Assembly (NCBI RefSeq): GCF_002007205.1
Contig: NZ_LAZS01000006.1
Span: forward strand, 806,001 to 870,000
Direction: 5' to 3'
From: Ensifer adhaerens
GTDB taxonomy: Bacteria; Pseudomonadota; Alphaproteobacteria; Rhizobiales; Rhizobiaceae
Length of the DNA stretch: 64,000 nucleotides
Part shown: positions 718-19,669 of the stretch, piece by piece
Position numbering within the stretch: position 1 is the first letter of the stretch
Layout of the letters: each line of letters starts with the position of its first letter
Translations under genes and position numbers: made by a program
The notes under the pieces: model-generated
Database searches by the model: none
Told to the model about the DNA's origin: nothing
What the model saw: the letters and a program-made list of their open reading frames with translations, nothing else

Positions 718-793
718 GGATTTCGTTCAGATACGGCGCTCCGGCGCCGAGAGACCGGCCGATGCCTTTGCACCGGCCGGTATGATCAGCTGA

Positions 794-2377: not shown

Positions 2378-2468
2378 GTCGTAAAATCCTGTGAGTTGCC
2401 GCGTCCTTTACAGGCTCGGCCCCGATTATGCAATTGACCGAGGCGCCCGCCGCCCGGCTTATGCGGGC

Positions 2469-2942: not shown

Positions 2943-2991
2943 TCCGCACTTCCGGACGGAAAACCGCTTCACACTTTTCCTGGAATTGCTT

Positions 2992-3432: not shown

Positions 3433-3561
3433 GGCACCCTAAGTCACAACACCAAACCGAACTTCGATAATTAGGCAATCTAGCACAACTGCCTTCGTTG
3501 AGCCATGGGAAAGACCACAGGCACCGGTTATTCTGCGGCCAGCAACATGGGAGCAGCAATC

Positions 3562-4778: not shown

Positions 4779-4802
4779 CGCCAGGGGCGAGGCGAGCGCG
4801 GA

Positions 4803-5435
4803 TTAACGCCGCGCTTCCGCCGCCATGCTCAGCGCAAAACCGAACAGCGCCGTGCCCATCGCCCAGCGCTGCACGACCATGAACAGCGGCCGTCCGGCGA
4901 GGAAAGCCGAGATGCCGCCTGCGGCAAGCGCGATCAGCGCATTGACGGTGACGCTGGTGACGATCTGGATCGAGCCAAAGACTAGGGACTGGCCGAGCAC
5001 GTTGCCGAGCTCCGGCCGGATGAATTGCGGCAAGAGCGAGAGATAGAGGATCGCCACCTTGGGATTGAGCAAACTCGTCAGGAAGCCCATCACGAACAGC
5101 TTCTTCGGCCCGTCCTTCGGCAGATGGCGAACCTGAAACGGCGAGCGGCCGCCGGGCTTTATCGCCTGCCAGGCGAGATAGAGGAGATAGGCAGCCCCCG
5201 CGAACCGCAGCGCGTCATAGGCGAAGGGCACGGCAATCAGCAGCGCGGTGATGCCGAGTGCCGCCGAGACCATGTAGACGACGAAACCGAGCGCAACGCC
5301 GCCGAGCGAAATCAACCCGGCAGCAGGTCCCTGGCTGATCGAGCGCGAGATCAGGTAAATCATGTTCGGTCCCGGCGTCAGCACCATGCCGAGGGCCAAA
5401 AGCGCAAAGCCGATCATGTCTTTCAGTTCGGGCAT
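4803..5435 (-). CDS. LysE/RhtB-family amino-acid exporter
   Basis: A 210-residue, six-segment inner-membrane protein. The family motif G-M-V-L-T-P-G-P-N-M near residues 16-25 and the L-N-P-K block near residue 127 identify the LysE/RhtB family of small exporters of amino acids or derivatives. The exact substrate cannot be read from sequence. Convergent with the NIPSNAP gene. A second, distinct LysE homologue is encoded divergently at 5706. Confidence 0.9.
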   Translation of the reverse strand: MPELKDMIGFALLALGMVLTPGPNMIYLISRSISQGPAAGLISLGGVALGFVVYMVSAALGITALLIAVPFAYDALRFAGAAYLLYLAWQAIKPGGRSPFQVRHLPKDGPKKLFVMGFLTSLLNPKVAILYLSLLPQFIRPELGNVLGQSLVFGSIQIVTSVTVNALIALAAGGISAFLAGRPLFMVVQRWAMGTALFGFALSMAAEARR

Positions 5436-5705
5436 GGAAACGTCTCCCGCTTATCTTCCACCGCAAGCTCTACGCACCGGGCGCCGCCAGACAATGACTG
5501 ACTTGTCACCGGGTCAATATTTGTCGCCGAGCAACCACTGCACCACCCCTCAAGCGCGCATAGGCGACGATAACACCTCCAATGGCTGCAGTATCGCTAA
5601 ATCGGCTGAGCATTCGGGCAGCAAGCGGCAGGCGCTGTCGTTCTCGACGTTCCCTTCTTTAGCGGATTACGCTAAAAGGCTGCATCATCACCGGAAGGAT
5701 CGTTC
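5436..5705. promoter_or_regulatory. Divergent intergenic region between two LysE-family genes
   Basis: A 270-bp non-coding stretch separates the two divergently transcribed exporter genes and must hold both promoters. GGAAGGATC lies just ahead of the ATG at 5706 as ribosome binding site. I see no clear operator palindrome. Confidence 0.4.
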
Positions 5706-6323
5706 ATGACGCTCGTGGCTCTCATCGCCTATAGCGGCGCGCTCTTCATCGCCGCGGCCATCCCCGGTCCCGGCGTCACCGCGCTGGTCGCCCACGCGCT
5801 GGGCTCCGGTTTCCGCGAGACCTTCTTCATGGGCCTCGGCATCGTGCTCGGCGACATGATCTACCTGACGGCCGTCATTCTCGGGCTGGCGCTGATCGCC
5901 CAGACCTTCACGACCGCCTTCCTGGTCGTGAAGTTCGCCGGTGTTCTCTATCTCGGCTACATCGCCTGGAAGCTCTGGAGCCCGGGTCTGCTGCCGGAGG
6001 ACATCAAGGCAAAGCCGTCGACGAGTGCGGCCATGTCCTTCCTGTCGGGCCTGCTGGTCACGCTCGGCAACCCGAAGACGATGCTGTTTTACGTGGCGCT
6101 GGTGCCGACGCTGATCGACATCGAGGCGATCGGTCCCCGCGACTACGGCCTGCTCCTCACGGCAACCTTCCTGGTGCTCCTGGCGGTGCTTACGCCCTAC
6201 ATGCTGCTCGCGGCACGTGCGCGCCTGCTGCTCAAGCAACCGAAGGCGCTCAAGGCGCTGAACCGCGTTGCGGCCAGCGTGCTGGCAGGAACGGCGGCCT
6301 ATATCGCCGTCCGCGCCAACTGA
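5706..6323 (+). CDS. LysE/RhtB-family exporter
   Basis: A 205-residue membrane protein with six hydrophobic segments and the family motif A-A-A-I-P-G-P-G-V near residues 17-25 and G-N-P-K-T near residue 122. Probably an amino-acid or homoserine-lactone-type exporter; substrate undetermined. It is only distantly similar to the divergent LysE protein at 4803, so this is not a recent duplication. A ribosome binding site (GGAAGGA) precedes the ATG. Confidence 0.9.
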   Translation: MTLVALIAYSGALFIAAAIPGPGVTALVAHALGSGFRETFFMGLGIVLGDMIYLTAVILGLALIAQTFTTAFLVVKFAGVLYLGYIAWKLWSPGLLPEDIKAKPSTSAAMSFLSGLLVTLGNPKTMLFYVALVPTLIDIEAIGPRDYGLLLTATFLVLLAVLTPYMLLAARARLLLKQPKALKALNRVAASVLAGTAAYIAVRAN

Positions 6324-6460
6324 AAAAACTTTTCCCGAACAACGACTTCGCCGGTGCTTTTTCCTCCGGCAGATCGCTGGACTGCGTTTGCCGTTCTGGA
6401 AACGCGCGGGCATTGTTCCTATTCTCATAGCTCGACAATTCACGCCCAAGGGAGAAACCC

Positions 6461-7429
6461 ATGTCCGACACACGCAAGCCCGGCCGCGGCCGCGTCTATT
6501 CCTCGATCACGGAAACGATCGGCGATACCCCGATCGTGCGCCTCGACAAGCTTGCCAAGGAAAAGGGCGTCAAGGCGAACCTGCTCGCCAAGCTCGAGTT
6601 CTTCAACCCGATCGCGTCGGTGAAGGACCGTATCGGCGTAGCGATGATCGAGAGCCTGGAAGCGCAGGGCAAGATTACGCCCGGCCGTACGACGCTCGTC
6701 GAACCGACCTCGGGCAACACCGGCATCGCGCTCGCCTTCGTCGCGGCTGCCAAGGGCTACAAGCTGATCCTGACGATGCCGGAGACCATGTCGGTCGAGC
6801 GGCGCAAGATGCTGGCGCTGCTCGGCGCCGAGCTGGTACTGACCGAAGGCGCCAAGGGCATGAAGGGCGCGATCGCCAAGGCGCAGGAACTGGTCGAAAC
6901 GCTGCCGGACGCGATCATTCCGCAGCAGTTCGAAAACCCGGCCAACCCGGAAATCCACCGCAAGACCACGGCCGAGGAAATCTGGAACGACACCGACGGC
7001 GCCGTCGACATTTTCGTCTCCGGCATCGGCACCGGCGGCACCATCACCGGCGCCGGCCAGGTGCTGAAGGCGCGCAAACCCTCGATCAAGGTGATCGCCG
7101 TGGAGCCTGAAGAATCCCCGGTTTTGTCCGGCGGCGCGCCCGGCCCGCACAAGATTCAGGGCATCGGCGCAGGCTTCGCGCCGGCGATCCTCGACACCTC
7201 GATCTATGACGAGATCGTTACGGTCAACAGCGCCGAGGCGATCGAGGCCGCCCGCCTTGTCGCGAAGCTCGAAGGCGTGCCGGTCGGCATTTCCGCAGGC
7301 GCGGCGCTGACGGCGGCGATCGAAGTCGGCCAGCGCGACGAAAACGCCGGCAAGACCATCGTCGTCATCATCCCGTCCTTTGCCGAACGCTACCTCTCGA
7401 CGGTGCTGTTCGAAGGGCTGGGCGGCTGA
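6461..7429 (+). CDS. cysK: Cysteine synthase A (O-acetylserine sulfhydrylase)
   Basis: A 322-residue PLP enzyme that makes cysteine from O-acetylserine and sulfide, the last step of assimilatory sulfur metabolism. The PLP lysine is K55 in N-P-I-A-S-V-K-D-R. The substrate loop T-S-G-N-T-G lies at 83-88 and the phosphate-binding G-T-G-G-T motif near 190. Length matches the family (about 310-325). GGGAG precedes the ATG. It is a single gene followed by a strong rho-independent terminator. Confidence 0.95.
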
Positions 7430-8245: not shown

Positions 8246-9142
8246 CTATGCCGCCGCCTGTAGCCGCTCACCGGCAATGCGATAGGAAATCGCCTCGGCG
8301 AGATGGATGCGACCGACGGTTACTGCGCCATCGAGATCGGCGAGCGTGCGTGCAACCTTCAGCACACGATGGTAGCCGCGGGCGGAGAATTTCATCTTTT
8401 CGGCAGCGTCCCTGAGAAGCTGCAGCCCCGCCGCGTCGGGTGCTGCGATCTTCTCGATCAGCGAGGTCGACGCGCGGGCGTTGCTGGTCAGGTCCGCGTG
8501 GCCGAGGACGGCAAACCGGTCGATCTGCATGGCACGGGCGCGAGCAACGCGACGGGCAACGACCTCGCTGCTCTCGGCAGCCGCAGGCTTGAGGAGATCG
8601 GCGGCGCTGACGGCCGGCACGTCGATGCGGATATCGATGCGGTCCATCAGCGGACCAGAAATGCGCGCCTGATAGTCGGCCATGCAGCGCGGCCCGCGGG
8701 CGCAGGTGCGGCCGGGTTCACCCGCCATGCCGCAGCGGCAGGGGTTCATGGCGGCGACGAGCTGGATTGCGGCGGGGTAGCTGACGCGGTGGTTGGCGCG
8801 GGCGATGATGCATTCGGCGGTTTCGAGCGGCTGGCGCAGCGCGTCGAGAACCTGCGGCGTGAATTCCGGGAACTCGTCGAGGAAGAGGACGCCATTGTGC
8901 GCCAGCGACGCCTCGCCGGGCTTGGCGCGCAAGCCGCCGCCAACCATGGCGGCCATGGTCGCGGAATGGTGCGGTGTGCGGAACGGCCGCCGGTCCGAGA
9001 GCTTGCCGCCCGGTAGCTGCCCGGCGATCGAATGGATCATCGAGACTTCGAGCAGTTCGGCCGGATTGAGCGGCGGCAGGATCGAGGGCAGACGCGCGGC
9101 CAGCATCGACTTTCCCGATCCGGGCGGGCCGACCATCAACAA
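8246..9142 (-). pseudogene. comM: comM 3' fragment (AAA+ Mg-chelatase-like part), separated by insertion
   Basis: This is the C-terminal ~298 codons of ComM/YifB, a hexameric helicase that promotes branch migration in natural transformation. Visible are the Walker A loop G-P-P-G-S-G-K-S, the Walker B L-F-L-D-E-F-P-E-F, the cysteine cluster C-R-C-G...C-A-R-G and the C-terminal chelatase-associated domain. The N-terminal part lies about 10 kb away at 19028-19669, on the far side of an integrated element. The native sequence starts at about 9142. The frame continues into element DNA up to an ATG at 9163 (residues M-G-S-M-Q-H-K), so a truncated ATPase lacking the Lon-like N-domain could still be made. 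Confidence 0.93.
9136..9138. other. Probable attachment-site crossover, left junction
   Basis: The + strand reads ACCATCAACAACTTGTG here. To the left is ordinary comM (M-V-G-P-P-G). To the right the codons become TTG-TTG-AAG, which differ from the C-T-G-C-T-G-A-A-T at the other junction. Only TCA is shared, which fits a serine integrase that exchanges over a 2-3 bp core. The assignment rests on reading-frame restoration, not on a long direct repeat. Confidence 0.65.
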
Positions 9143-9364
9143 CTTGTGTTGCATACTACCCATCGCTACCGTGAAGCATGACGATCATTCAAGGCGATGC
9201 CAAGTGACGCTCACGGGGGCGCAGCCCCCTGCCGCGCCTGTCGGCTTGGCTCCCCCGCTCTCATTGGCGAGGGCCTAGTCCGGAGCAGGGCAGAAGGGCG
9301 GCCTGTGGCCTCGTTTCCCTTCCGTCCTGCTCCTGGGGTCGGTATTGTTTGGTCGCTTCGGACC

Positions 9365-9437
9365 GTCAATGGGAATTATCTGGGACCGTGGCTCGGCTCC
9401 GCCTGCGCCCGCACCATTCCCAGAAATTCCCATTGAC
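9365..9437. repeat. 20-bp inverted repeat (possible oriT or replication-origin hairpin)
   Basis: The left arm 9365-9377 (GTCAATGGGAATT) is a perfect complement of 9425-9437, and the inner arm 9379-9385 (TCTGGGA) of 9418-9424. Together they make a 20-bp stem with one bulged A at 9378 and a 32-nt loop. It lies about 230 bp inside the left end of an element that encodes both a relaxase and an HUH replication initiator. Hairpins of this size are typical of nick-site regions, but no known nic sequence was recognised. Confidence 0.6.
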
Positions 9438-9552
9438 CGCCCTCCCGCTCCGGTGACCTCCTGCACTGATTAAGAGTTTACGAAACGAATTAAGGAAGCC
9501 CGCGTCCTAAGTCCGGGTTCCCCTGGGCTCTTTCAACCAAAATTGTAAAAAT

Positions 9553-9582
9553 AACCTCATGAAATCATTCGTTTATGAGGTT
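9553..9582 (+). promoter_or_regulatory. Dyad masking the ribosome binding site of the small gene at 9587
   Basis: AACCTCAT at 9553-9560 pairs perfectly with ATGAGGTT at 9575-9582, with 14 nt between. The right arm contains the GAGG that serves the ATG at 9587. In RNA the stem would hide the ribosome binding site; in DNA it could equally be an operator. Confidence 0.5.
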
Positions 9583-9586
9583 TCCC

Positions 9587-9814
9587 ATGAAATTGACGAC
9601 GACAAAAATTAGGGCGCTGACGTTTACAGTTCTCATCGAGGAGGCAACCAGCAGCGGCACCAATGGTCAGCCCCTTTTCTATCTGGCGTCGGTCTACAAG
9701 TTAACTGACAACGGTACCAAGCAATTGCTGCGGCGCTCGCGACTCCCGGGAGCCGCACTCACCCTGAAAATCGAGATCGAGCGAGACGGATTGCGTGCCT
9801 TCGACCGCCTTTGA
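9587..9814 (+). CDS. Small hypothetical protein of the element
   Basis: A 75-residue basic protein, unrecognised. It begins M-K-L-T-T-T-K-I-R-A-L and has alternating hydrophobic strands and a K-Q-L-L-R-R-S-R basic patch, which suggests a small beta-rich or nucleic-acid-binding fold (inference). I chose the ATG at 9587 over the in-frame ATG at 9575 because GAGG at 9577-9580 is correctly spaced only for the former. It is convergent with the mob operon and separated from it by the hairpin at 9907-9930. Confidence 0.5.
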   Translation: MKLTTTKIRALTFTVLIEEATSSGTNGQPLFYLASVYKLTDNGTKQLLRRSRLPGAALTLKIEIERDGLRAFDRL

Positions 9815-9906
9815 GGCCCGCGCCGGAACGAGCGTTTCCGAAGGCATCCAACATCATCCGACCCGCGCAAAAGCGTTGTACGGGCCTGCAAATGCGAAGA
9901 AATGTT

Positions 9907-9930
9907 GACCGCCGACTAACGACGGCGGTC
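9907..9930. terminator. Hairpin at the end of the mob operon
   Basis: GACCGCCG at 9907-9914 and CGGCGGTC at 9923-9930 form an 8-bp stem with an 8-nt loop. It contains the stop codon of the gene at 9916 and lies between convergent genes. No long T run follows, so termination is only probable. Confidence 0.45.
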
Positions 9931-10443
9931 ATTTGCATTTTCCAGCACCGGCGGTGATGACGTTCGATCCAGCCGCCACGCCTCAGCGCGAGCCTTCATC
10001 GCCCGCGACGTCGCGGGCAGATTGCCGGGAACGTCACAACGCAATAGGTCTGACCACTCCCCGAAATCGAATGCATTCTTGATCCAGTCCGCCGCCTCCG
10101 GAACATCCCGCATCAGCGCGGCCTTCGCCGCCGTCAACCTCGTAGATTCCCGCATGGGCTTATGCCTGCGGATGAAAACCATGGCGTCGTCTCCGGACAT
10201 GTAGATTTCCTTTGGAGGCAGGGGGGCAGGAGCGCGCCCCTGCGGCTCTCCCGACCCAGAACCCGACGTCACCCGCTGTAAAGGCATCAACGGCATCGAA
10301 CCAACGAGAGCGGCGAAGATGGCGAGAAGTTGGGCGGTGGCACCTTTCGGCGACATTTCGCGATGGGCTTGACGCGCCCGCTTCATCCTCATTGCTATCC
10401 TGTGCCCGCAATGGCGCGGTCTTTCATTTGATTTCGCTTTCAT
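9916..10443 (-). CDS. Hypothetical protein, mob-operon accessory
   Basis: A 175-residue protein that I do not recognise. The N-terminal 30 residues are strongly basic. A hydrophobic stretch (A-Q-L-L-A-I-F-A-A-L-V-G-S near residues 37-49) could be one membrane segment. The C-terminal half is soluble, with an A-A-D-W-I-K-N-A-F-D-F-G-E-W-S-D block. Its ATG overlaps the stop of the relaxase gene (ATGA), so it is translationally coupled and probably assists mobilisation or replication (inference). Confidence 0.6.
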   Translation of the reverse strand: MKAKSNERPRHCGHRIAMRMKRARQAHREMSPKGATAQLLAIFAALVGSMPLMPLQRVTSGSGSGEPQGRAPAPLPPKEIYMSGDDAMVFIRRHKPMRESTRLTAAKAALMRDVPEAADWIKNAFDFGEWSDLLRCDVPGNLPATSRAMKARAEAWRLDRTSSPPVLENANDRRR

Positions 10444-11693
10444 CTCGGCCTGTACTCCCTTCCCTGTTTCAACTCTGGCTCATACCGAGCAAGCCTGCCC
10501 CGGAGTTCATTCACTTCCATCCAAGCGTCATTTCGCTGGGCGGCGAGAGCACGCACTGATGCCGCCGATGCCTCAGCCTTTCGCTCAGCGTCGCGGCGGC
10601 GATCCTTCTCGGCTTGGATTTCACCACGAGCGCCATCCAGGAGCCGCTGCGCCCGGTCAATTCGCCCACGGAACTCGCTTGCAACAGCCTCACGCACTTT
10701 CGAAATCAGCAGACCGTCGAAAAACGAGCGCAGAAGCCCGCCAAAGCCTTTCGTACGCTCTGCCGATCGCTGAGACTCCTCCGCCGCTTGACGTGCCTTG
10801 ACGGCTACGGCTGACGCTTTCTCGGCCCGTTCCCGTTCACGGCTGGCCCTCTCTGCGGCGCGATCAGCAGATGCCTTCATTTGGACGGCCTTTGCGGTCT
10901 CCGCCGAAGCGGCTGCCTTCGCTTGAGTGACAAACTCACGGCCCTCTGACTGGACAGCTTGCGCCCGCTCCATTGTCACCTTCAGGGCCTGCGCCTGTTT
11001 CTGCTCAGCTTGCCATTCGTCGCGCCGGAGACGACGGCGGCGAGGACCGAGGCGGGTCAATCCCGAAGGTGCGGCGACCGCATGAAAATAGCTGTCCTGC
11101 CACTTGCTCATTGCGGCCCGATAGGCTGCATCACCGCGGCGGTTAAGGGCTTTATCGTCCTCGCCTGGACGAGGGCCCTCCGCCATGACTGCAGCCTTCG
11201 CCTGTTGCCCAGGATGGAACCTTGACGCCTTCATGTCCTTGCCGCCCGGAAGGGCATAGGCATGTAGGTGCCACCTCGATTCATCCTCATGCCGTATTAC
11301 GGACGTCAGACCGTCTCCGAACTGCGCCTTGAGCCATAGAACGTTACGGCGCTCCCAAGCCTCCACCGCCTGTCGCTTGGCGGGATCGGCCCGAACTTCC
11401 TCCGGCGTGAAGGGGTGGCTGACGACGATCGTGCAGAGCGTATGCTGATCTTTCCGCACTGCTCGCTCTTTCCCGCCCCGCGGCGTCGTCTTCGCCTGGG
11501 CGGCGCGCTCGTCGTGCAAGCGCTCGATCTCATCAAGTCCGATTCCAAAGACGACTACAGGTGGACGAGGGTCCCGAACATGGACGGAGGCGGCAGGATC
11601 GCGACGAGCCTCGGAGAACACAAAGCTGGTGGACCGCCCCTTGCGATCACCCTTGCGACTGAAGTTCTCCATGTGTGCAAACTGGAACGCCAT
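10440..11693 (-). CDS. MobV/Pre-like plasmid mobilisation relaxase
   Basis: A 417-residue protein of the MobV (Pre, plasmid recombination enzyme) type, which nicks oriT and pilots a single strand to the recipient. The metal-binding signature H-E-D-E-x3-H-L-H is at residues 135-144 (H135, D137, E138, H142, H144), preceded by the strand C-T-I-V-V-S-H-P-F. The N-terminus begins A-F-Q-F-A-H-M-E-N-F. From about residue 225 to the end the protein is a long Ala/Glu/Arg-rich coiled coil. It lies 6 bp after the small cysteine-rich gene. Family assignment is from the motif; the N-terminal half is divergent. Confidence 0.8.
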   Translation of the reverse strand: MAFQFAHMENFSRKGDRKGRSTSFVFSEARRDPAASVHVRDPRPPVVVFGIGLDEIERLHDERAAQAKTTPRGGKERAVRKDQHTLCTIVVSHPFTPEEVRADPAKRQAVEAWERRNVLWLKAQFGDGLTSVIRHEDESRWHLHAYALPGGKDMKASRFHPGQQAKAAVMAEGPRPGEDDKALNRRGDAAYRAAMSKWQDSYFHAVAAPSGLTRLGPRRRRLRRDEWQAEQKQAQALKVTMERAQAVQSEGREFVTQAKAAASAETAKAVQMKASADRAAERASRERERAEKASAVAVKARQAAEESQRSAERTKGFGGLLRSFFDGLLISKVREAVASEFRGRIDRAQRLLDGARGEIQAEKDRRRDAERKAEASAASVRALAAQRNDAWMEVNELRGRLARYEPELKQGREYRPR

Positions 11694-11699
11694 GCGCCA

Positions 11700-11957
11700 C
11701 TACCGCCTCAATAGAGCGATGGCTTCGGCCTCGGCTTCTGAATCGAATTCAACGTCTCGGCGATGGTCCCCGACCCGCCGGTGTGTGGCGGCGTCGGTCC
11801 ATCCCCCAAAATGATAGACGGCACAGTCCAGGCACAGCCAACCGCCTTCATCGGTCTGAACGTCCGGCGCGTTTTCACAAAATGGGTCGATACACATGAA
11901 GGTGCCATTGGCATACTTGATGACCGGGCGTCCTTCGCATTCCTTTGCATGTTTCAT
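11700..11957 (-). CDS. Small cysteine-rich (zinc-ribbon-like) protein
   Basis: An 85-residue protein with paired cysteines: C7, then C-I-D-P-F-C, then C-L-D-C, with an H-F-G-G-W tail, a layout that suggests a small zinc-binding fold. No family recognised. It sits between the replication initiator (156 bp upstream) and the relaxase (6 bp downstream) in the same direction, so it is likely an auxiliary DNA-binding protein of the replication/mobilisation unit (inference). Confidence 0.6.
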   Translation of the reverse strand: MKHAKECEGRPVIKYANGTFMCIDPFCENAPDVQTDEGGWLCLDCAVYHFGGWTDAATHRRVGDHRRDVEFDSEAEAEAIALLRR

Positions 11958-12014
11958 TTACACGTCTCCCGCTTCTTCAAACATTGTCATCGCCGGCGGC
12001 CTCAGAGGCAACGA

Positions 12015-12031
12015 TTAGTGACCGACTAATG
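12015..12031. repeat. Short inverted repeat between rep and the cysteine-rich gene
   Basis: ATTAGT-GACCG-ACTAAT, a perfect 6-bp dyad in the 156-bp gap downstream of the rep stop. Function unknown; could be an operator for the mob operon or part of an origin. Confidence 0.35.
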
Positions 12032-12113
12032 CTTTTCCCTTTGGTCAAAGCGTCGGCTCTCCGAGGGGCCTTTCAGGCAGACCCTCTGGGGCCTGGCTGG
12101 GGCCTCTGGCGGA

Positions 12114-13568
12114 CTATGCCGCCACCAGTTCAAGCACCAGCCGCAACGGCGGCGGGCGGAACGTCAGGCCGAAGGCGACGGCATGACCGCGCTCGCGATC
12201 CATCGCCGTGCGCACCGCCTCGCCGCCCGAGCAACCAGACCGTTGCCGGACGTCATCGGCGCGAGCGGCGACCGTCCACGCAGACGGCACATGTTCTCGG
12301 GTCCGCGCAGGCTCACCCGTCTCCTGCGCATGACCTGCGAGTTCGAGCGCCAGCCGCTCGACTTCCGCCCACCGATCCGCGCCGAAGTCCTCGAGCGCGG
12401 CGAGCACGGTAGACGCCCTCTTGCGAGACATGAGCGTGTTCCAGATGTCGCGGCGCAGGTATCCTGCCGCCTGCTCTTCCGGGGACTCCTCTTCTCCGGG
12501 GCGCTCCTCGTCCTCGTCCGCCTCGATACCGAGAGCGGCGGCGATCCCGGGCGAGACGACGCAGGAGCGAACCCCCTTCATCGCCGCGGCATACTCCAGC
12601 CAAAGGGCTTTCATGCCGTCGTCGCCAGACGCCAGTTCGAGGATTTCGAACGGATGCAGCCCCTCTTTCGAGCGGGCCTTTTTCGTCGCCTGTCCTGCCA
12701 TTTCCCACGCGACGTCGCGGGTGCGCCCAACGCCCTTGGCGATGTATTCGGCCAGCTTCTCTTCTGACCGAATGACGGCGACGTCCTGCCCGTCGAGCAA
12801 GGCCGAATAGCCCGCCGCCTGGACGGCTTCCAGATACCGCCGCACGAACCATTCCCCGAGGTCCTGCGTCTCAGCTCCCGAGCCGCGCAAGAGCAATGCG
12901 GTATGGATGTGGAAGTGCCAGCCGTTGGCCTTCGAGAACGTCACTTCTGGCGCAGAAATGACCCCGAAAATCCCATGCTGCTTCTTCCGGCGCGCCCACG
13001 GCGCACCCTGCCGCGCCTTCCGCGAAGCGGCCTGAACGACCTTCCGGAGATCGGCCAGACCCTGCCCGCGGCTATGCCGCACGGTTAGGGTACACATGAC
13101 CATCTGCCCGTCGCTGAAGCCCTTTACATGGTCGAAGACCTCTGCCATGCGGTCGCGGCGCTCTTGCCCCTTGCGCGGAGCGCAAACGGGGCAAAGCCAG
13201 CCCGAGTCACAAGCGAACGTCCCCGAGGTCCGCGCACCTGCTGCGCGGAGGTGCAAGCCCACCTCCTCCACCTCAAACCCTGCCCGACCGCAACCGCAGA
13301 CAGAGGGGCCGCGCCCCTCTTCGGGGCGAAGGATCGAGGCCGCGACGTCGCGGAGCGCCCACCGCTTCCGCCTCTGCCGGAATGCCTCTTCTGCCCCTGC
13401 CTCTTTTGCAGGGGGGGGCAACGCAGCTCCTCTCTTGTCAAGACGGCTCGCTTCGCCCGCCGCAACAACGCGAACGCCCTGCTGTCGCGGGCGCTTGTCA
13501 ACAATTTTGACTGGAGGGTTTAGAGAGGCTGCTAAATCGGCTGGGATATGTCCCAGCCCCGGGCTCAA
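12114..13568 (-). CDS. Rolling-circle replication initiator (HUH, Rep_1-like)
   Basis: A 484-residue HUH-superfamily protein resembling plasmid rolling-circle initiators of the pC194/pUB110 (Rep_1) type. The metal-binding motif reads H-F-H-I-H (H218, H220, H222) after a G-W. The probable nicking tyrosine is Y275 in A-E-Y-I-A-K-G-V. Upstream cysteines C91, C93, C120, C126 and C129 (W-L-C-P-V-C) form a zinc-binding module seen in this family. The C-terminal third is acidic and variable. In an integrated element such a protein may allow replication of the excised circle. The first Met may be an over-extended start; the zinc module at residue 91 onward is clearly native. Confidence 0.85.
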   Translation of the reverse strand: MSPGLGHIPADLAASLNPPVKIVDKRPRQQGVRVVAAGEASRLDKRGAALPPPAKEAGAEEAFRQRRKRWALRDVAASILRPEEGRGPSVCGCGRAGFEVEEVGLHLRAAGARTSGTFACDSGWLCPVCAPRKGQERRDRMAEVFDHVKGFSDGQMVMCTLTVRHSRGQGLADLRKVVQAASRKARQGAPWARRKKQHGIFGVISAPEVTFSKANGWHFHIHTALLLRGSGAETQDLGEWFVRRYLEAVQAAGYSALLDGQDVAVIRSEEKLAEYIAKGVGRTRDVAWEMAGQATKKARSKEGLHPFEILELASGDDGMKALWLEYAAAMKGVRSCVVSPGIAAALGIEADEDEERPGEEESPEEQAAGYLRRDIWNTLMSRKRASTVLAALEDFGADRWAEVERLALELAGHAQETGEPARTREHVPSAWTVAARADDVRQRSGCSGGEAVRTAMDRERGHAVAFGLTFRPPPLRLVLELVAA

Positions 13569-13632
13569 TCAACCGTCAACGGCGGCTTTACAATGTCAGC
13601 AATGTCGGTCAACATTTAAGAACATACCCCGA

Positions 13633-13675
13633 AAAAACCGCCGTAGGGTCGCAAGCCCGATGATCGGCGGTTTTT
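13633..13675. terminator. Bidirectional terminator-like hairpin between rep and vsr
   Basis: AAAAACCGCCG at 13633-13643 pairs with CGGCGGTTTTT at 13665-13675, with an inner GGG/CCC helix in the 21-nt loop. Both arms end in runs of A/T, so it could stop transcripts from vsr and from the other side. It lies upstream of rep, so a role in replication origin structure cannot be excluded. Confidence 0.6.
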
Positions 13676-13795
13676 CTATGGTCAGTCGCCGGCGCGCAGG
13701 GGTCAAGCGCCGAACGATATCTCGGCGTGACACAGCCGCGGCAGTGTGACCAATGTCACGAACGCCCATCAAACCTAGCGTGCGACGTCAGTCGA

Positions 13796-14206
13796 TTAAT
13801 CCAGAAAGTCGCGCAGGCGATCCGCCAAATTGTCCGCAGTCGTCTCACACTCCCAGATCACAAGCACACGCCATCCTTCGGCAGTTAGAGACTCTATGTG
13901 CTGCTGATCCCGCTCCTCGTTCCTTGCAATTTTCGGGACCCAATAATCCCTCCTGGATTTTGGTAATGTCGCGTCTTTGCACGAAGGGTCCGGATGACGG
14001 TGCCAAAAACAGCCATGGACGAAGATAATGGCCCTCCTGCTTGGGAACACCAAATCAGGCTTACCCGGCAGGTCTCGCCGGTGAAGGCGATACCTGTAGC
14101 CCATCGCATGGGCCATTCGCCTGACAATCATTTCAGGCTTGGTGTTCTTTGAAGCAATGCGCGCCATGTTGGCGCTACGCCTCTCCGGCGTTAGCTTGTC
14201 TACCAA
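13796..14206 (-). CDS. vsr: Very short patch repair endonuclease
   Basis: A 136-residue Vsr nuclease that nicks next to T:G mismatches arising from deamination of 5-methylcytosine. The catalytic residues fall at the same positions as in the E. coli enzyme: D51 in L-P-G-K-P-D-L-V-F, H64 and H69 in F-V-H-G-C-F-W-H. The zinc-site cysteines and the Y-W-V-P-K-I-A-R-N-x-E-R-D helix are also present. It follows the C5 methyltransferase by 55 bp, the usual pairing, and would limit C-to-T mutations at that enzyme's target. Confidence 0.95.
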   Translation of the reverse strand: MVDKLTPERRSANMARIASKNTKPEMIVRRMAHAMGYRYRLHRRDLPGKPDLVFPSRRAIIFVHGCFWHRHPDPSCKDATLPKSRRDYWVPKIARNEERDQQHIESLTAEGWRVLVIWECETTADNLADRLRDFLD

Positions 14207-14261
14207 GGTTTACCCCTAAGTCGGGGAACTTCGATCCTGAGCCTCGCTGAAGGTCACCGTC

Positions 14262-15515
14262 TCATGCCGAGCGTCTAGCCCCATCAGGCGCAAAGTTCGC
14301 CGCCCGTTCATCCGTCGACTCTCCGAACCCATCGAAGACGCCGGCGGGCGTGTAAGCGTCCACGAGGACAGCTTTTGCCATAGTCGCGACTGCGTAGGCA
14401 AGCAAGGGCGGAACGGCGTTGCCTATTTGCTTCAGCATCTGCCACTCGCTGCTCTTGAAGACAAATCCGTCGTGAAACGACTGCAACCGCGCCGCCTCCC
14501 GCACAGTGATCCACCGATCGAGCTTGGGGTGAACCCATTCCGAGAGGTCACGGTGCATCTGTGCCAGAATTGTGTAGCTGGGCAAATCGGGATGCAGACG
14601 ACGCCATTTTTCGGGACGCGCACCGTTCCATATTTCCTTCGGCAGCGAGTCGGCCTTCTCTCCCGGTTTAAGATATGTGATTAGGCGCGCGCGTTTCGCC
14701 ATCATTTCCTTGGTATGGTGATTATGTAGCTGAGCTTCGCCGCGGCCAATCGCCCGCTTGCGTTTCGTAGACTTGGCGTAACATCCTTCCGAGTAGTCGA
14801 GCCGCATCATTTGCAAGAATGGGTGCGGTCGCTCAACAGATGGATATGGCAGCGTGGCTCCGGAGGGGACGACTTTACTCGGCAGATCGCCGATGGCGTC
14901 CCACACTGTCGTCTGCTTTTCCACCTTTTGCGTATCGAGGAGCTTGAGTGCGAAGTCGGTTATCTCTCCGCCGCAATTCAGATCGTCCCGCGTGCCGAAG
15001 AAAAACACCCGCTCACGCGTTTGGGGAACGCCAAAGTCAGCCGCGCTGACCTTAACAAACGTCGTATTGCCATAGCCCAAACCGCGAAAGTGCTCGATTA
15101 TAGCGTCGCGGAAATGCCCCTTTTTCATCAACAGGATGTTGGGGACGTTCTCCAAGAGAAACATCCTCGGCCGAAGCTGATCAACTACTCGGGCGAACTG
15201 GGTATACAGCTGGTTCCGGTCATCAAAGAGATTGCGGGGGCCGATTTGGCTGAACCCTTGGCACGGCGGGCCACCGAACACCAAGTCGACATCCTCTCCG
15301 CACATCTTCTGATGCTTGTCGAAGTTCTCTCCGGAAAGGAAATCATGAATATCGCCTTCGAAAAGAGGCGTCTTCGGGAAGTTCGCGCGATACGTCTCGC
15401 AGGCGAACCGATCGAACTCAACCGCCGCCTTCACTTCAAACCCGGCAAGCTCAACCCCCTCGCAAAACCCGCCGCACCCCGAAAAGAGGCTAACTGCCGT
15501 TGGTTTCTTCGTCAT
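14262..15515 (-). CDS. DNA (cytosine-5) methyltransferase of the R-M system
   Basis: A 417-residue C5 methyltransferase that protects the cognate target. Motif I S-L-F-S-G-C-G-G is at residues 9-16, the catalytic P-C-Q of motif IV at C85 (F-G-G-P-P-C-Q-G-F-S-Q), E-N-V of motif VI at 122-124, the motif VIII Q-T-R-E-R-V-F, and motif X Q-I-G-N-A-V-P-P near the C-terminus. I start at 15515 because AGGA lies 7-8 bp upstream of that ATG; the ATG at 15542 lacks one. It is divergent from the controller gene, with about 220 bp of regulatory DNA between. The target sequence is not readable from the protein. Confidence 0.95.
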   Translation of the reverse strand: MTKKPTAVSLFSGCGGFCEGVELAGFEVKAAVEFDRFACETYRANFPKTPLFEGDIHDFLSGENFDKHQKMCGEDVDLVFGGPPCQGFSQIGPRNLFDDRNQLYTQFARVVDQLRPRMFLLENVPNILLMKKGHFRDAIIEHFRGLGYGNTTFVKVSAADFGVPQTRERVFFFGTRDDLNCGGEITDFALKLLDTQKVEKQTTVWDAIGDLPSKVVPSGATLPYPSVERPHPFLQMMRLDYSEGCYAKSTKRKRAIGRGEAQLHNHHTKEMMAKRARLITYLKPGEKADSLPKEIWNGARPEKWRRLHPDLPSYTILAQMHRDLSEWVHPKLDRWITVREAARLQSFHDGFVFKSSEWQMLKQIGNAVPPLLAYAVATMAKAVLVDAYTPAGVFDGFGESTDERAANFAPDGARRSA

Positions 15516-15548
15516 AGCTTTTCCTAAAAGTGGCCGGCGCATTGAAGG

Positions 15549-15560
15549 GACTCATGAGTC
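15549..15560. promoter_or_regulatory. 12-bp palindrome GACTCATGAGTC upstream of the methyltransferase
   Basis: A perfect palindrome built of the same GACT/AGTC half-sites as the C-box, located 34 bp before the methyltransferase ATG. It may let the controller or the methyltransferase itself regulate this promoter. Confidence 0.5.
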
Positions 15561-15641
15561 CAGCTTCAGCGACCTTAAAGGTGGTCAATCAAGCTGGCAA
15601 CAGTCCATGTAGCCTGAGTCTTGGGGAGACGGTGGGAAAGT

Positions 15642-15664
15642 GACTTTCCCCTGTGGACTAGCCA
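15642..15664. promoter_or_regulatory. Degenerate second C-box-like site
   Basis: GACTTTCCCC followed by TGTG and GACTAGCC repeats the half-site / TGTG / half-site order of a C-box with poorer matches, just upstream of the strong site at 15670. Possibly a weaker controller operator. Confidence 0.35.
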
Positions 15665-15669
15665 TATGT

Positions 15670-15691
15670 GACTCATAGTCCGTGGAGACCA
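15670..15691 (+). promoter_or_regulatory. C-box operator for the R-M controller protein
   Basis: GACTCATAGTC followed by CGTG and G-A-G-A-C-C: the left half matches the published C-box consensus (GACT-Y-AT-AGTC, CGTG spacer) exactly, while the right half is degenerate. It lies 58-68 bp before the controller start, the expected place for autoregulation of the controller/endonuclease transcript. Confidence 0.75.
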
Positions 15692-15737
15692 CCCGTAATC
15701 AGTCGTACTCAGGAGGCCAATACGACTTAGGGGCACT

Positions 15738-15980
15738 ATGGACCTGTCGAAGTACTACGGCGCTGCCGTGCGTCAGCACCGACTGCTCGTGCGTCTATCG
15801 CAGGAGGAATTGGCGGAGCGTGCCGGGCTGGACAGGACATATGTCAGTGGGATCGAACGCGGCCGCCGGAACCCGTCACTGCGCAATCTCCAGAATATCT
15901 CTGAGGCGCTGGGGGTTGATCTCGACGTCATGTTCGCGACCGCGCGACAGATAGCCCTCAACCAATCGGGGAAAAACTAG
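15738..15980 (+). CDS. R-M controller (C) protein, XRE-type helix-turn-helix
   Basis: An 80-residue all-helical DNA-binding protein of the C.AhdI/C.BclI type. The helix-turn-helix covers about residues 22-42 (L-S-Q-E-E-L-A-E-R-A-G-L-D-R-T-Y-V-S), followed by the family-typical G-I-E-R-G-R-R-N-P-S-L. Such proteins bind C-boxes as dimers, first activating and then repressing their own operon, which delays endonuclease synthesis until the methyltransferase has protected the host. A canonical C-box lies just upstream, and the stop is followed at once by the endonuclease frame. Confidence 0.93.
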   Translation: MDLSKYYGAAVRQHRLLVRLSQEELAERAGLDRTYVSGIERGRRNPSLRNLQNISEALGVDLDVMFATARQIALNQSGKN

Positions 15981-17015
15981 GTGCCATTTACGTTCCCCAG
16001 CGCTCCCCACAGCGATAGTCAAGCGATCGTATGCCTCAATTGCAATGCCGCGGGCAAGGGATGCCTTGTGGATACGAGAGGAGGGAGGATACGCGGGCGC
16101 AAGACCCAATTCCAGATAACTCAGCGGCGAGTTATGGATTGTGCATTGGACACCTTCGTTCCCGGCACCGACAACGATCCCGACCCAACTCGTCTGTTTG
16201 CTGACTACCGGAGACAAGCATACGAGAACGTTGACACAGCTGGCCATGTGATCTGGCCCGGAGCATTCGAGTTGACCGAAGCTCAGAAGGCGAAGGTCGA
16301 CGGGGATATCTATGAAACGATGGAGGCGGCCGCGCTTTGGAATGCCGCCGCGGTCTGGAATTCGTTCATGGACACCGGCGTCTGGTCGAGCGCCGTATTT
16401 ACGCAGCCAAAGAACGCCGTCCCCAGCCCAGCGCGCAAAGTTGCTATCGTGAAAATGGCTCGCGGGGCCGATACGACCCTCATATTGAACGACAAGGCGC
16501 GCGCGGAGTACAAGGCATTCGAAGTGGCGCTTCAGACGCGCGGCATGGAACTAAAGCTCAGCACGCCGGACATACTAGGTCTTAGGATGCCTGATCCCAT
16601 GCCCGAGGGCTTCAGGCCCTTTCTGTCCCCTCTACCTGATTTGACACACGGAAGTCAGGAAATTTTGGACACAGCCTGGCAAGGGATTCAAGGCACTCTT
16701 GAAGGCCGCCACTTCCTGTTTGCCATCGCAGTGAAAACGAGTACACGAAGCGACAGGTTGTATCAGGCGCTCTTCGAGGCCAACGTTCTGAAATACATTC
16801 TGGGTTACGTACTTCGGGGCCCTGCGATCAAATTTCACGCCCATCTTGAAACGTTCGCCAACGCTGATGTCGTCGGACGCTACAAGGCCGCATCAATGAC
16901 ATCGCTCTTAGCCGGAGGGACTCCCGCGAAGGCAATCGACGAGACATATCTGGCGCTTTCCCCCCGCGATACGGCCCAGCACATCTTGGATCAGCTACCC
17001 GAGTTTCCACTGTAG
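15981..17015 (+). CDS. Putative Type II restriction endonuclease, Cfr10I/Bse634I-like
   Basis: A 344-residue protein in the endonuclease position of the R-M operon. The expected PD-(D/E)XK residues of the Cfr10I/Bse634I group are visible: G-D-I-Y-E (E112), S-T-P-D (D197), A-V-K-T (K252) and E266, exactly 14 residues after K252 as in that family. The motif R-S-D-R (256-259) just after the catalytic lysine matches the R-x-D-R element that reads CCGG in Cfr10I, Bse634I and NgoMIV. A conserved N-A-D-V-V-G lies near 294. The frame opens with a GTG touching the controller stop (TAGGTG). A start at the ATG at 16134 would give 293 residues, the size of Bse634I, and is quite likely the true one. Predicted to cut a CCGG-centred site; inferred, not shown. 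Confidence 0.78.
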   Translation: MPFTFPSAPHSDSQAIVCLNCNAAGKGCLVDTRGGRIRGRKTQFQITQRRVMDCALDTFVPGTDNDPDPTRLFADYRRQAYENVDTAGHVIWPGAFELTEAQKAKVDGDIYETMEAAALWNAAAVWNSFMDTGVWSSAVFTQPKNAVPSPARKVAIVKMARGADTTLILNDKARAEYKAFEVALQTRGMELKLSTPDILGLRMPDPMPEGFRPFLSPLPDLTHGSQEILDTAWQGIQGTLEGRHFLFAIAVKTSTRSDRLYQALFEANVLKYILGYVLRGPAIKFHAHLETFANADVVGRYKAASMTSLLAGGTPAKAIDETYLALSPRDTAQHILDQLPEFPL

Positions 17016-17289
17016 CGGCGTCCATACATTCCCCATCCAGGAACATCGGCGCTGCTGGTGACTGCGCTTCTGAGATCGCAGGCGCATTCCCTTGAGGACC
17101 GCCACGCTCACGGCTCTGATAAGCTTAGCTATTGGAATCGTCACCGGTGGCGAAAACCGAGAGATGAGGCCGACGGATCGGCCTTCTGCCTGGGATGTCA
17201 ATTTTTTGGAGCTCTAGGAAGCCCGTACAACAACGAAGAGACATCGGGATGATCCATAGGACGTCCCGCATCTCCCCCCGGGCACGGCG
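17016..17289. other. Gap between endonuclease and recombinase, no gene seen
   Basis: About 270 bp between two convergent genes. A short frame at 17058-17252 has no recognisable product or ribosome binding site. Nothing else stands out. Confidence 0.5.
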
Positions 17290-18984
17290 TCAGCCTACCG
17301 CGCTGCCAGAAGGATACAGGCCTTTTAATTCGTTCTCCGCATCTTGAATTTCACGATCGGAAATCAACGGCGGGAGCGGCGTCATAGTGTAAGTCGAGCT
17401 GCCGTCGCTTCGCCCAGCCCCATGCAACCACCTGTTCACGTAGGCCATCACCGCGCCCTCGTCCGGCAGGTTCTCTTCCGCCTCGAAGCCGAGTGCCGAT
17501 CTCGTATGAAACCTTGTCGGACCGACTGTGATCTTTTCTATCACGCTCCGGAGCATGTTCGAAACGTAGGTACGCAGCTCGACATTCCCGGGCTCTTCGC
17601 GCAGCCTAGTTGCCAAAACGGCGGCTTCCTTCATAGTCACGCCAAAATTGCGGGCGACGGTATCTCGGTTCGCTGCATTCTTGGCTTTTGCCAACGCCGT
17701 CTCGGCCTTGGATTTGTCCTTCTCAAGACTTGCGAGGCGCTGCTGTAGAGTTTCACTCAGTCCGTTGCGCTCGACCGCGTCGGCCATGCGCTCAAGGCGC
17801 GCCTGAATATCCATAAGAGCGGATTCACATGCCTGAACCTCGACGACTTTTTCGTTCTCCGCCTCATTGACCGTCGGGGAACAGTTCATAACAACTTTGG
17901 CTTCAAGCGTTTCATACGCATGCTTTTTGTTATGATCGCATCCGGCGTGCAGCAACGACGAACTGCATTGGAGATAAGGCTTCCCGCCTCTCTTGCCTTT
18001 ATCGATGTAGTGCATACCACCACCGCAGACCTGGCAGCGAAGCAGACCTGACAAGACATTCCGGTGCACACCGGCGGATCGTCTCACGGACGACGCCGCG
18101 CGCGCCTTCATCATCACCTGGGCTTTGTGGAAAGTTCTTTCATCGATAACTGACGGGTAATAGTCCTTCAGTGTTGCGGACGCAGTAGCGTCCGACCCAC
18201 CCGCCAGCTTCCCTCGGGGCGTGAACTCCCCATAGGTTGCGGGGTTGTCGAGGATTTTCTTGATATACGAGTCGTACCAAATCCGCCCCCCTCCAAACGG
18301 CTTGACCCCGTCGGCGTTAAGCTGCTTCGCAATGGAGCGCGTTCCGATGCCAGAGATTGACGATTCGAATATTCGTCTGACCACTGCGGCGTGTTCAGGG
18401 ATCAGCCTGTATTCGTCGCCGTCCTTTTTCATCCACGCCGGACATATTTTCGTCATGGCCTTCCCCGACGAGGCCGCCAGTTGCCGTTTCTTCTCCCATG
18501 CTTCGAGAACACGGTGGCCTTTAGTGGCGGATTCTTCGTGGGCACGCGCCATGATGCCTAGAGAAATCATGAGCTGGTAATTATTGGCCTCTACGCTCTC
18601 ACGCGAATACTCCTGGCTATCAAGAAGCGTCACAATGCGAATGCCAGCGTTGAGCAGATCGAGGAAGCGAGGAAGCGCATCGAGGACGTGTTCGCGTGAT
18701 AACCTATCCAAGGACTCGACCAAAAGGTAAGAGCCTCGTGGGACGTCTCCGGTCTCCACTGCCTTTAGGAAAGAGCCTAGAGCAGCGCGGTCGTCCACGT
18801 TCCTCCCGCGGAATGCTGAGACCCCTTCGTCGCGCAGGGACTCGTCCAACTCAAGTCCATGTTTGTCAGCAAAGAGACGCGCCTTCTCAAGTTGTCGTCG
18901 CAGGGAGTCCCCACGAGCCTGCTCGGGCCGCGAGAAACGGATATAGCTGTATACCTTCGGCTTTGCGGAGAAATCTATCTTCAT
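17290..18984 (-). CDS. Large serine recombinase (integrase of the element)
   Basis: A 564-residue site-specific recombinase. The resolvase-like catalytic domain starts at once: V-Y-S-Y-I-R-F-S-R-P-E-Q with the nucleophile at S18, then D-E-G-V-S-A-F-R-G-R-N and the E-S-L-D-R-L-S-R block. A Recombinase domain follows (A-W-M-K-K-D-G...I-A-K-Q-L-N), then a zinc ribbon (L-L-R-C-Q-V-C-G-G-G-M...C-S-S...C-D-H) and a coiled coil near residues 385-440. The gene begins about 45 bp from the right junction with comM, the usual place for an integrase next to its own attachment site. No directionality factor was identified; the small element proteins are candidates. Confidence 0.93.
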   Translation of the reverse strand: MKIDFSAKPKVYSYIRFSRPEQARGDSLRRQLEKARLFADKHGLELDESLRDEGVSAFRGRNVDDRAALGSFLKAVETGDVPRGSYLLVESLDRLSREHVLDALPRFLDLLNAGIRIVTLLDSQEYSRESVEANNYQLMISLGIMARAHEESATKGHRVLEAWEKKRQLAASSGKAMTKICPAWMKKDGDEYRLIPEHAAVVRRIFESSISGIGTRSIAKQLNADGVKPFGGGRIWYDSYIKKILDNPATYGEFTPRGKLAGGSDATASATLKDYYPSVIDERTFHKAQVMMKARAASSVRRSAGVHRNVLSGLLRCQVCGGGMHYIDKGKRGGKPYLQCSSSLLHAGCDHNKKHAYETLEAKVVMNCSPTVNEAENEKVVEVQACESALMDIQARLERMADAVERNGLSETLQQRLASLEKDKSKAETALAKAKNAANRDTVARNFGVTMKEAAVLATRLREEPGNVELRTYVSNMLRSVIEKITVGPTRFHTRSALGFEAEENLPDEGAVMAYVNRWLHGAGRSDGSSTYTMTPLPPLISDREIQDAENELKGLYPSGSAVG

Positions 18985-19026
18985 AGAAAAGCGCTATCAT
19001 TTCAATGTCTAGCGTGCAACATGCTT

Positions 19027-19029
19027 TCA
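19027..19029. other. Probable attachment-site crossover, right junction
   Basis: The + strand reads GCTTTCAGCAGATTGTGG. To the right, the reverse complement is native comM (G-N-H-N-L-L). To the left the frame runs into the unrelated residues K-A-C-C-T-L. TCA is the only base triplet shared with the left junction in the matching register. The conserved Asn codon (AAT) on this side places the crossover to its left. Confidence 0.65.
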
Positions 19030-19669
19030 GCAGATTGTGGTTGCCGGCCGCCGCCACCTCCAGCGCCCGCTTGGCGCTTTCCTGGCCCTTGATGTCGCCG
19101 AGGTCGGGCAGGTCGGACGCACCCGAGCGGATCGCGGCCTCAGGCCGTGAAAGCACCTGTGTGCCGCGGAAATGGTTGGCAATCGCGATCAGGCTGCGCG
19201 GCGCAAGTATGTCTATCTCGGCACCGGCCCAGGCGGCCTCGGGGCCGCTCTCGGCGGGGCAGATCAGACCCTTGCCGAGCGCATTGGCGCCGATCGCCGC
19301 CGGCAGTGCGCCGGCAACGGCGGCAATCGTGCCGTCGAGATTGAGTTCGCCGATCACCACATAGGGTGCCAGCGCATCACCGGGGATGGCGCCCAGCGCC
19401 GCCATCAGGCCGAGCGCGATCGCCAGATCGAAATGGCTGCCTTCCTTGGGAAGATCGGCGGGGGCGAGATTGACGGTAATGCGCTTGGCCGGCAGCGCCA
19501 GGCCGGAGGCGTGAAGGGCCGCCTGCACCCGCTCGCGGCTTTCGGCGACAGCCTTGTCGGGCAGGCCGACGATCTGCATGCCGACCTTGCCCGGCGCGAC
19601 CATCACCTGAACGTCGACCGGCAGACCCTCGATACCCTGAAATGCGACCGTGCTGACGCGCGCGACCAT
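19028..19669 (-). pseudogene. comM: comM 5' fragment (Lon-like N-terminal domain), separated by insertion
   Basis: The first ~214 codons of ComM: M-V-A-R-V-S-T-V-A-F-Q-G-I-E-G, the S-R-E-R-V-Q-A-A-L block, N-L-A-P-A-D-L-P-K-E-G and D-L-x-D-I-K-G-Q-E-x-A-K-R-A-L just before the ATPase core. At G-N-H-N-L-L the sequence leaves comM for element DNA, and the frame ends about 47 codons later at 18887. The Walker A loop and the rest are in the fragment at 8246. I chose the ATG at 19669 because GAGGGG precedes it. This product has no ATPase, so ComM function is presumably lost. Confidence 0.94.

Follow-up and report, generated by a model that had tools for sequence, protein, structure and literature searches.

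A probable integrated pRm1132f-type plasmid in comM of Ensifer adhaerens and the integration polarity of related serine recombinases

Genes and features of the comM locus

The window analysed here is a 64,000-nucleotide stretch of the Ensifer adhaerens genome (contig NZ_LAZS01000006.1, positions 806,001 to 870,000). Within it the comM gene is cut at codon 214, and its N- and C-terminal parts are separated by an element of about 9.9 kb, as described in the initial annotation (Table 1). The cargo predicted there, namely a serine recombinase, an HUH Rep, a MobV-like relaxase and a full restriction-modification (R-M) system, is present; the restriction endonuclease can now be specified as SgrAI-like, and a Vsr endonuclease is added to the list. 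The gene of the large serine recombinase (LSR) begins about 45 bp away from the core, also as proposed. With its own integrase and chromosomal attachment (att) sites, the element has the integration functions expected of an integrative mobilizable element.

Table 1. Features of the split comM gene and its insertion (window coordinates)
Feature	Position	Strand	Remarks
comM C part	8249..9142	-	host sequence from 9139 downwards; in ORF with Mg_chelatase and Mg_chelatase_C domains
C-side hybrid att site	9138..9153	-	core TT at 9139-9138; arm TGCAACA at 9153-9147
Whole inserted element	9140..19028	.	9889 bp, between the two core dinucleotides; comparison with intact comM
Stretch with four segments collinear to pRm1132f	9209..13442	-	
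Long hairpin	9360..9442	-	in non-coding segment common to pRm1132f
ORF, 175 aa	9916..10443	-	partial similarity to pRm1132f 5806-6211
MobV-like relaxase	10440..11693	-	78% identical to pRm1132f Mob
Small ORF, 85 aa	11700..11957	-	no family above cut-off
Rolling-circle Rep, pRm1132f type	12114..13568	-	HUH motif at residue 218
Vsr mismatch endonuclease	13796..14206	-	
C5-cytosine methyltransferase	14262..15542	-	
HTH protein, control-protein type	15738..15980	+	
SgrAI-like type II restriction endonuclease	15981..17015	+	
Large serine recombinase, 564 aa	17290..18984	-	Resolvase, Recombinase and Zn-ribbon domains, all above cut-offs
N-side hybrid att site	19015..19031	-	core CT at 19030-19029; arm TGTTGCA at 19021-19015
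comM N part, codons 1-213 (213 codons)	19031..19669	-	comparison with intact comM

The MobV model scored 36.7 on the relaxase, under the cut-off of 100, and the related plasmid pRm1132f is typed as MOBV. A search of the genome contigs with the LSR returned one locus; in the PDB the LSR gave a single weak match and Mob gave none. No mating-pore family was detected among the nine element proteins scanned. These proteins also include no Tn7-type transposase, and an origin like that of the AbaR islands of Acinetobacter is rejected on this ground; those islands likewise interrupt comM (described in PMC11472951) but are Tn7-like.

Boundaries of the insertion

The boundaries first proposed depended on related strains having a contiguous comM, and one is present in 12 of 15 genus-mates, where the gene is a single open frame of 510 codons with the motif NHNLLM(V/I)G running across the junction. 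An empty site therefore exists. The shared TCA at which the two parts were to be joined is not the core. Comparison with intact comM instead places the exchange point at the first two bases of codon 214, that is at 19030-19029 on the N side and 9139-9138 on the C side. Of the other three genus-mates, one (G001) has a different LSR element at the same spot in comM, one (G009) another insert in comM at codon 77/78, and one (G014) an apparently contiguous comM with the frame broken near codons 36-40.

Six elements could be followed at both ends. In four of them (the window element, G001, G085 and G243) the arms of the composite attP are symmetrical about bases 1-2 of codon 214, whereas in G023 and G552 the best symmetry centre lies elsewhere. 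The two hybrid sites of the window differ in their core, CT on the N side and TT on the C side, so that either one of them was substituted afterwards or the mismatch is tolerated. This disagreement, and the fact that no directionality factor was identified in the element, would be expected of a decayed element that has lost the ability to excise. We regard such decay as unlikely, since the reading frames of the LSR, Rep, Mob, endonuclease and methyltransferase are all open and the two comM halves are still 97-99% identical in protein sequence to their intact relatives.

It had further been suggested that the loss of ComM would reduce DNA uptake. This is imprecise, as ComM is described as a helicase that acts in the recombination of incoming DNA (PMC11472951). 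ComEC- and DprA-type genes were found in the host, by searches that both also match in the E. coli control.

Kinship with the plasmid pRm1132f

The Rep and Mob proteins find their nearest counterparts, within the plasmid records searched, in pRm1132f (NC_004965), a 7.2-kb MOBV plasmid of Sinorhizobium meliloti. Both rep and mob, together with two non-coding segments, are common to this plasmid and the element and follow one another in the same circular order. The matching window segments are 9209-9453 (pRm1132f 1836-1597), 9533-9811 (238-7171, across the plasmid start), 10310-11687 (5930-4555) and 12008-13442 (4495-3060); all four fall into one circular order on the plasmid, and the hairpin is conserved in both. 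On the strength of these matches, the element would, once excised, be a rolling-circle plasmid resembling pRm1132f and equipped with an LSR and an SgrAI-like R-M system. By its HUH Rep of that type and its backbone order the element would belong to the pRm1132f type. No member of the pRm1132f replication system other than pRm1132f itself is said to have been described in rhizobia (PMC10194956), and the window element would thus be a second.

Unlike the window element, pRm1132f lists neither an LSR nor an R-M gene among its annotated genes. The plasmid also contains about 1.1 kb (1837-2954) to which nothing in the element corresponds at the DNA level. The missing stretch and several small plasmid genes that are likewise unmatched could point to a mosaic, in which an LSR/R-M element already resident in comM later gained a pRm1132f-like rep-mob piece, so that the circle would not be a plasmid descendant; many other elements of the LSR clade do bear quite different cargo. 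A later gain of this kind is distinctly unlikely in our view, given that two non-coding segments match besides rep and mob, that all four segments keep the plasmid's circular order, and that a restriction-site footprint, described below, spans both parts of the element.

The restriction-modification system and a site footprint

The restriction endonuclease is homologous to SgrAI over residues 22-334 (E 7.8e-43) and, as in the SgrAI system, is accompanied by a C5 methyltransferase. The endonuclease is a distant homologue of SgrAI, and CRCCGGYG is the putative recognition site of the element's R-M system, on the indirect evidence of a site footprint. Nine of the ten RCCGGY sites in the element have the form CRCCGGYG, compared with 41 of 281 in the host part (Fisher p 6e-7). 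These nine stand against 2.3-2.4 expected, and the R-M/LSR part, which is not derived from pRm1132f, holds six against 1.1 expected. No RCCGGY site changed at both outer bases occurs (0 vs 7.1 expected), whereas sites changed at a single inner base show no depletion (4 vs 2.7 expected); this pattern disfavours SgrAI secondary-site cleavage as the cause of the footprint.

The footprint need not stem from the R-M system of the element, because RCCGGY sites are also few in pRm1132f, which has no annotated R-M gene, and in the elements G582 and G487, where their number is about half of the expectation. pRm1132f has five such sites, of which three are CRCCGGYG and two are others, against 10.5 of the latter expected. 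GGCGCC is absent from the element as well (0 vs 12.7 expected), and it is also depleted in pRm1132f, G001, G085, G023, the G009 insert and the host part, and hence its loss is not specific to the window element. Both observations would agree with a footprint left by host enzymes that cut RCCGGY wherever plasmids like pRm1132f reside, which would be uninformative on the specificity of the element's own system. We treat this origin as a serious but less probable option: CRCCGGYG itself is spared or even raised, including in the part of the element that is foreign to pRm1132f.

Related recombinases at comM

Most of the related LSRs share its insertion point, as the proposed mechanism would have it. 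Of 58 loci, 42 (the window and 41 of the 57 others) carry the insertion at bases 1-2 of comM codon 214; ten have no comM part in the fetched stretch, three lie at another comM site and three are placed otherwise. The weak LSR matches L006-L008, and 11 further matches that had no locus, fall outside these 58. Restriction genes, CBASS-like genes and further genes of defence type occur in other elements of the clade, according to a scan of 71 of 117 ORFs. The scan pooled unrelated ORFs, excluding LSRs and every ORF of G029, G639 and G468, and most matches cannot be assigned to a single element. This cargo is in line with the account of comM interruptions in Acinetobacter given in PMC11472951.

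Integration polarity

At all 42 loci that share the comM core the LSR gene starts less than 250 bp from the core and reads away from it. It lies beside the C part of comM at 32 loci and beside the N part at ten, including the window; the C polarity of L085 was assigned manually, its locus containing both comM parts. Nine changes of polarity are needed on a 38-row tree, seven of them forced by well-supported branches, and nine on a 58-row quick tree; the smaller tree was built without the 16 unlabelled rows and without L051, L052, L095 and L100, whose branches were long or whose sequences were short. Shuffling of the polarity labels on the 38-row tree gave a mean of 8.3 changes, close enough to the nine needed to indicate that polarity has no phylogenetic clustering.

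The sister pair G243 (N side, core AT read toward the LSR) and G142 (C side, AG) have 22 identical bp of recombinase-side arm, which with their AT and AG cores fits switching via a self-complementary core. G487 (N side, CT) and G672 (C side, AG) share 20 of 25 bp of this arm. The window element and its sister in Hoeflea are again of opposite polarity, with LSRs 59% identical and a Hoeflea core of AT; AT cores occur at only two of the 42 loci. We lean towards a reading in which the LSRs of the clade use one fixed comM dinucleotide and have reversed polarity about nine times through changes in the attP core, which in the direction of the recombinase reads AG, AT or CT. Matching attB cores would be provided by the variation between Leu and Ile at comM codon 214 (CTN, TTN, ATN), and AT would serve as a two-way intermediate.

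Polarity was scored from where the LSR gene lies with respect to the comM parts, and it could in principle also differ because the recombinase gene has moved or turned relative to its att site, with the core not reversed. This is very improbable, given the constant position and direction of the gene at the 42 loci and given that sisters of opposite polarity keep the same recombinase-side arm while their core is reversed or AT. If core reversal is correct, polarity reversal in this clade would be a natural counterpart of the laboratory polarity switch; no published report of natural polarity reversal by LSRs was found in the limited collection of literature searched.

A probable integrated mobilizable plasmid at comM

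Taken together, we consider it likely that the window holds an integrated small mobilizable plasmid, with a pRm1132f-type backbone that bears an LSR, the matching attP and an SgrAI-like R-M system, inserted at comM codon 214 in a direction set by a core dinucleotide that has been reversed many times in the clade. In the proposed mechanism, a rolling-circle plasmid with Rep, MobV-like Mob and the conserved hairpin segment would carry the LSR with attP and, in addition, the SgrAI-like endonuclease with its control protein, methyltransferase and Vsr. The LSR would recombine attP with the comM site in such a way that the initial dinucleotide of codon 214 is exchanged and comM is left split, and the core dinucleotide would set the direction in which the element faces. 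Repeated reversal of the core in the clade would probably have proceeded via a self-complementary AT core able to insert both ways. Once excised, the circle would be replicated by Rep and mobilized by Mob with a helper, and the R-M system would maintain and protect the element. The sequence itself supports the boundaries, the collinearity with pRm1132f, the preference of the clade for comM, both polarities and the site footprint; excision, replication, transfer, recognition of CRCCGGYG and switching via AT are deduced from these.

Such a history suggests a route from a small rolling-circle plasmid to a chromosomal island through the gain of an LSR. The comM clade would also offer a natural series in which the direction of integration flips with two base pairs, useful for tests of how LSR polarity evolves.

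Relation to known LSR insertions

To the initial annotation, a serine-recombinase element with such a load in comM of a rhizobial chromosome was new, but as an LSR target the gene is already on record. The magnesium-chelatase gene family is the target of 12.4% of predicted site-specific LSRs, and diverse LSRs converge on it (Durrant 2022, PMC10083194); in the sr1WO prophages of phage WO in Wolbachia, too, the LSR inserts in a magnesium chelatase gene (PMC9203015). We read the gene in both sources as being of the ComM/YifB type. The LSR elements of Durrant 2022 thus have the same target gene family as the window element, but that paper (PMC10083194) is not known to describe this element or polarity reversal at the comM site. 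While comM was thus already known as an LSR target, the probable pRm1132f-like plasmid nature of the element, the apparent repeated reversal of polarity and the CRCCGGYG footprint, which pRm1132f partly shares, go beyond the first reading of the sequence.

The sr1WO prophages resemble the window element in their alphaproteobacterial host and in the gene targeted, as described in PMC9203015; they differ from it in being prophages where the window element is plasmid-like, and the likeness holds at the level of the gene. The islands described in PMC3146451 are located at ssrA.

The element is real, of a known kind and at a known hot spot. This analysis adds its probable origin from a known plasmid type, a recurrent natural reversal of polarity in the clade of its large serine recombinase (LSR), and a restriction-site footprint. 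As a whole it is best explained, with good confidence, as an integrated pRm1132f-type plasmid carrying an LSR and a restriction-modification (R-M) system, whose core-set polarity has reversed repeatedly within the LSR clade.

Insertion into comM

The two parts of ComM lie ~9.9 kb apart in the window, and a contiguous comM frame of 510 codons is kept in 12 of 15 genus-mates, with NHNLLM(V/I)G spanning the position of the window's break; the initial annotation was thus right that an island splits comM. In genus-mate G001 this position is occupied by another, distinct LSR element, and in G014 comM is apparently unbroken by an insert, with its frame disrupted at about codons 36-40. In G009 another insert, of ~17.5 kb, interrupts comM at codon 77/78 (locus L029 from 1339; L030 to 8360). 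Among its products, three have a Mu-type transposase C-terminal domain, a fourth has an rve core and a further one is an IstB-like ATPase; a similarity search found no match to the window LSR in this insert. At locus L066 the comM N part is present twice (G245:C1:5109421-5110059 and 5121985-5122623), the extra copy being ~12 kb away from a comM whose N and C parts are adjacent.

Alignment of the flanks to intact comM fixes the exchange point at codon 214, bases 1 and 2: host sequence runs up to these bases at N-part junctions and resumes from them at C-part junctions. When attP was rebuilt by joining element ends, the arms were symmetrical about this core in four of six two-ended elements (window, G001, G085, G243); in G023 and G552 the top-scoring symmetry centre lay elsewhere. 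The cores of the window's hybrid att sites differ by one base.

The initial annotation expected ComM loss to reduce DNA uptake; the available text of PMC11472951 indicates that recombination of incoming DNA should be affected instead. ComEC- and DprA-type genes were matched in the host genome, but the same searches also give matches in E. coli, so the host is at most a candidate for competence. Self-protection of the island against replacement is accordingly a hypothesis.

Relationship to pRm1132f

Rep of the element shares 88% and 92% protein identity (two pieces) with that of the Sinorhizobium meliloti plasmid pRm1132f, and Mob 78%. Four DNA segments match in a common circular order, and a long hairpin, which folds better than 199 of 200 shuffled sequences, is also retained in the plasmid.

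Coordinates of features in and around the element
Feature	Window	Strand	pRm1132f
ComM N part	19669..19031	minus	
ComM C part	9142..8249	minus	
att core, N side (CT)	19030-19029		
att core, C side (TT)	9139-9138		
DNA match	9209-9453		1836-1597
DNA match	9533-9811		238-7171, crossing record start
DNA match	10310-11687		5930-4555
DNA match	12008-13442		4495-3060
Hairpin	9360-9442		retained

Plasmid positions ~1837-2954 have no match in the element, where the LSR, attP and R-M genes occupy the corresponding place. On sequence comparison, the simplest account would be a pRm1132f-like plasmid that acquired an integration module and an R-M module. In the available part of PMC10194956, pRm1132f is the sole member of its replication system described in rhizobia.

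The window LSR has all three expected domains. The endonuclease matches SgrAI across residues 22-334 (best E 7.8e-43) and also the Cfr10I/Bse634I family; RSDR and lysine stretches in the SgrAI alignment are presumably the recognition and catalytic residues. A control-protein-type gene lies immediately upstream of the endonuclease gene, and the methyltransferase and Vsr genes run in the opposite direction to it.

Target preference of the recombinase clade

LSR relatives (E <= 1e-30) occur in 21/397 genomes of the order, 42/394 of the family and 9/385 of the class, in overlapping samples that each count the window's genome. Among 58 LSR loci examined, with ~1.5 kb fetched on either side, comM is the usual target. 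The same insertion point recurs, 42 loci adjoining comM at the codon-214 core. Three more (L092, L094, L099) lie at another comM position, at about codons 28-33, in both orders relative to comM; three (L043, L076, L080) are otherwise positioned relative to a comM part, and ten have no comM part within ~1.5 kb on either side. This preference agrees with accounts of a magnesium chelatase gene as LSR target in the accessible portions of Durrant 2022 (PMC10083194) and a phage WO paper (PMC9203015), a gene that we read as ComM type. As far as these sources go, an LSR element in comM is therefore not the novelty initially supposed.

One comM element (L085 1475-4211, genome G133) measures just ~2.7 kb and holds the LSR and one other ORF of at least 150 aa. 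A pooled scan of comM elements (L027-L028, L056-L060, L062, L067, L085) gave MmeI- and EcoRII-type restriction genes, Vsr and McrB-like proteins, as well as CBASS-like (Cap15, CD-NTase, ThiF/E2/JAB), SIR2-, HerA- and AIPR-type proteins.

Reversals of integration polarity

In 32 of the 42 codon-214 loci the LSR adjoins the C part and is oriented opposite to comM (C polarity; cores in comM sense CT 30, AT 1, TT 1). It lies beside the N part, reading with comM, in ten, including the window (N polarity; CT 6, TT 3, AT 1). Nine polarity changes are required on a quick tree that includes 42 labelled rows and nine on a careful 38-row tree, where well-supported branches force seven; a single origin of polarity appeared in 0 of 200 bootstrap trees. 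Shuffled labels average 8.3 changes, so polarity is labile and without phylogenetic signal.

The core is reversed while the recombinase-side arm stays. Between genomes G243 (N) and G142 (C), 22 bp of this arm are identical, and their respective cores in the direction of the recombinase are AT and AG; G487 (N, CT) and G672 (C, AG) have 20/25 bp of it in common. The closest LSR relative found for the window (Hoeflea, 59%) is inserted with opposite polarity, and its core is AT. Sites synapse in either alignment, with efficient strand exchange only when the central dinucleotides are parallel (PMC3783163, available text). The natural core pattern is consistent with steps through AG, AT and CT, AT working both ways; two AT cases suggest this two-way role.

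Restriction-site footprint

RCCGGY is avoided in the element and CRCCGGYG spared: nine of its ten RCCGGY sites are CRCCGGYG, against an order-3 Markov expectation of 2.3 CRCCGGYG and 15 other RCCGGY. The corresponding fraction is 41/281 in the host part of the window, and ranges from 0/41 to 5/24 among stretches taken from nine further comM elements and from the G009 insert. The footprint is present in both the plasmid-like and R-M/LSR parts, an indication that the two have moved as a unit. An SgrAI secondary-site pattern was considered and is not what the site classes show. Most likely, the element's methyltransferase would protect CRCCGGYG, and RCCGGY-type restriction in hosts would have removed the other sites; pRm1132f, with CRCCGGYG at 3/5 RCCGGY sites, leaves room for doubt. 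Other RCCGGY sites are also at about half their expected number in the G582 and G487 elements, which slightly lowers our confidence in the overall explanation.

GGCGCC is absent from window positions 9140-19028 (12.7 expected). The motif is under-represented in pRm1132f too, as well as in some of the other inserts in comM and in the window's host part.
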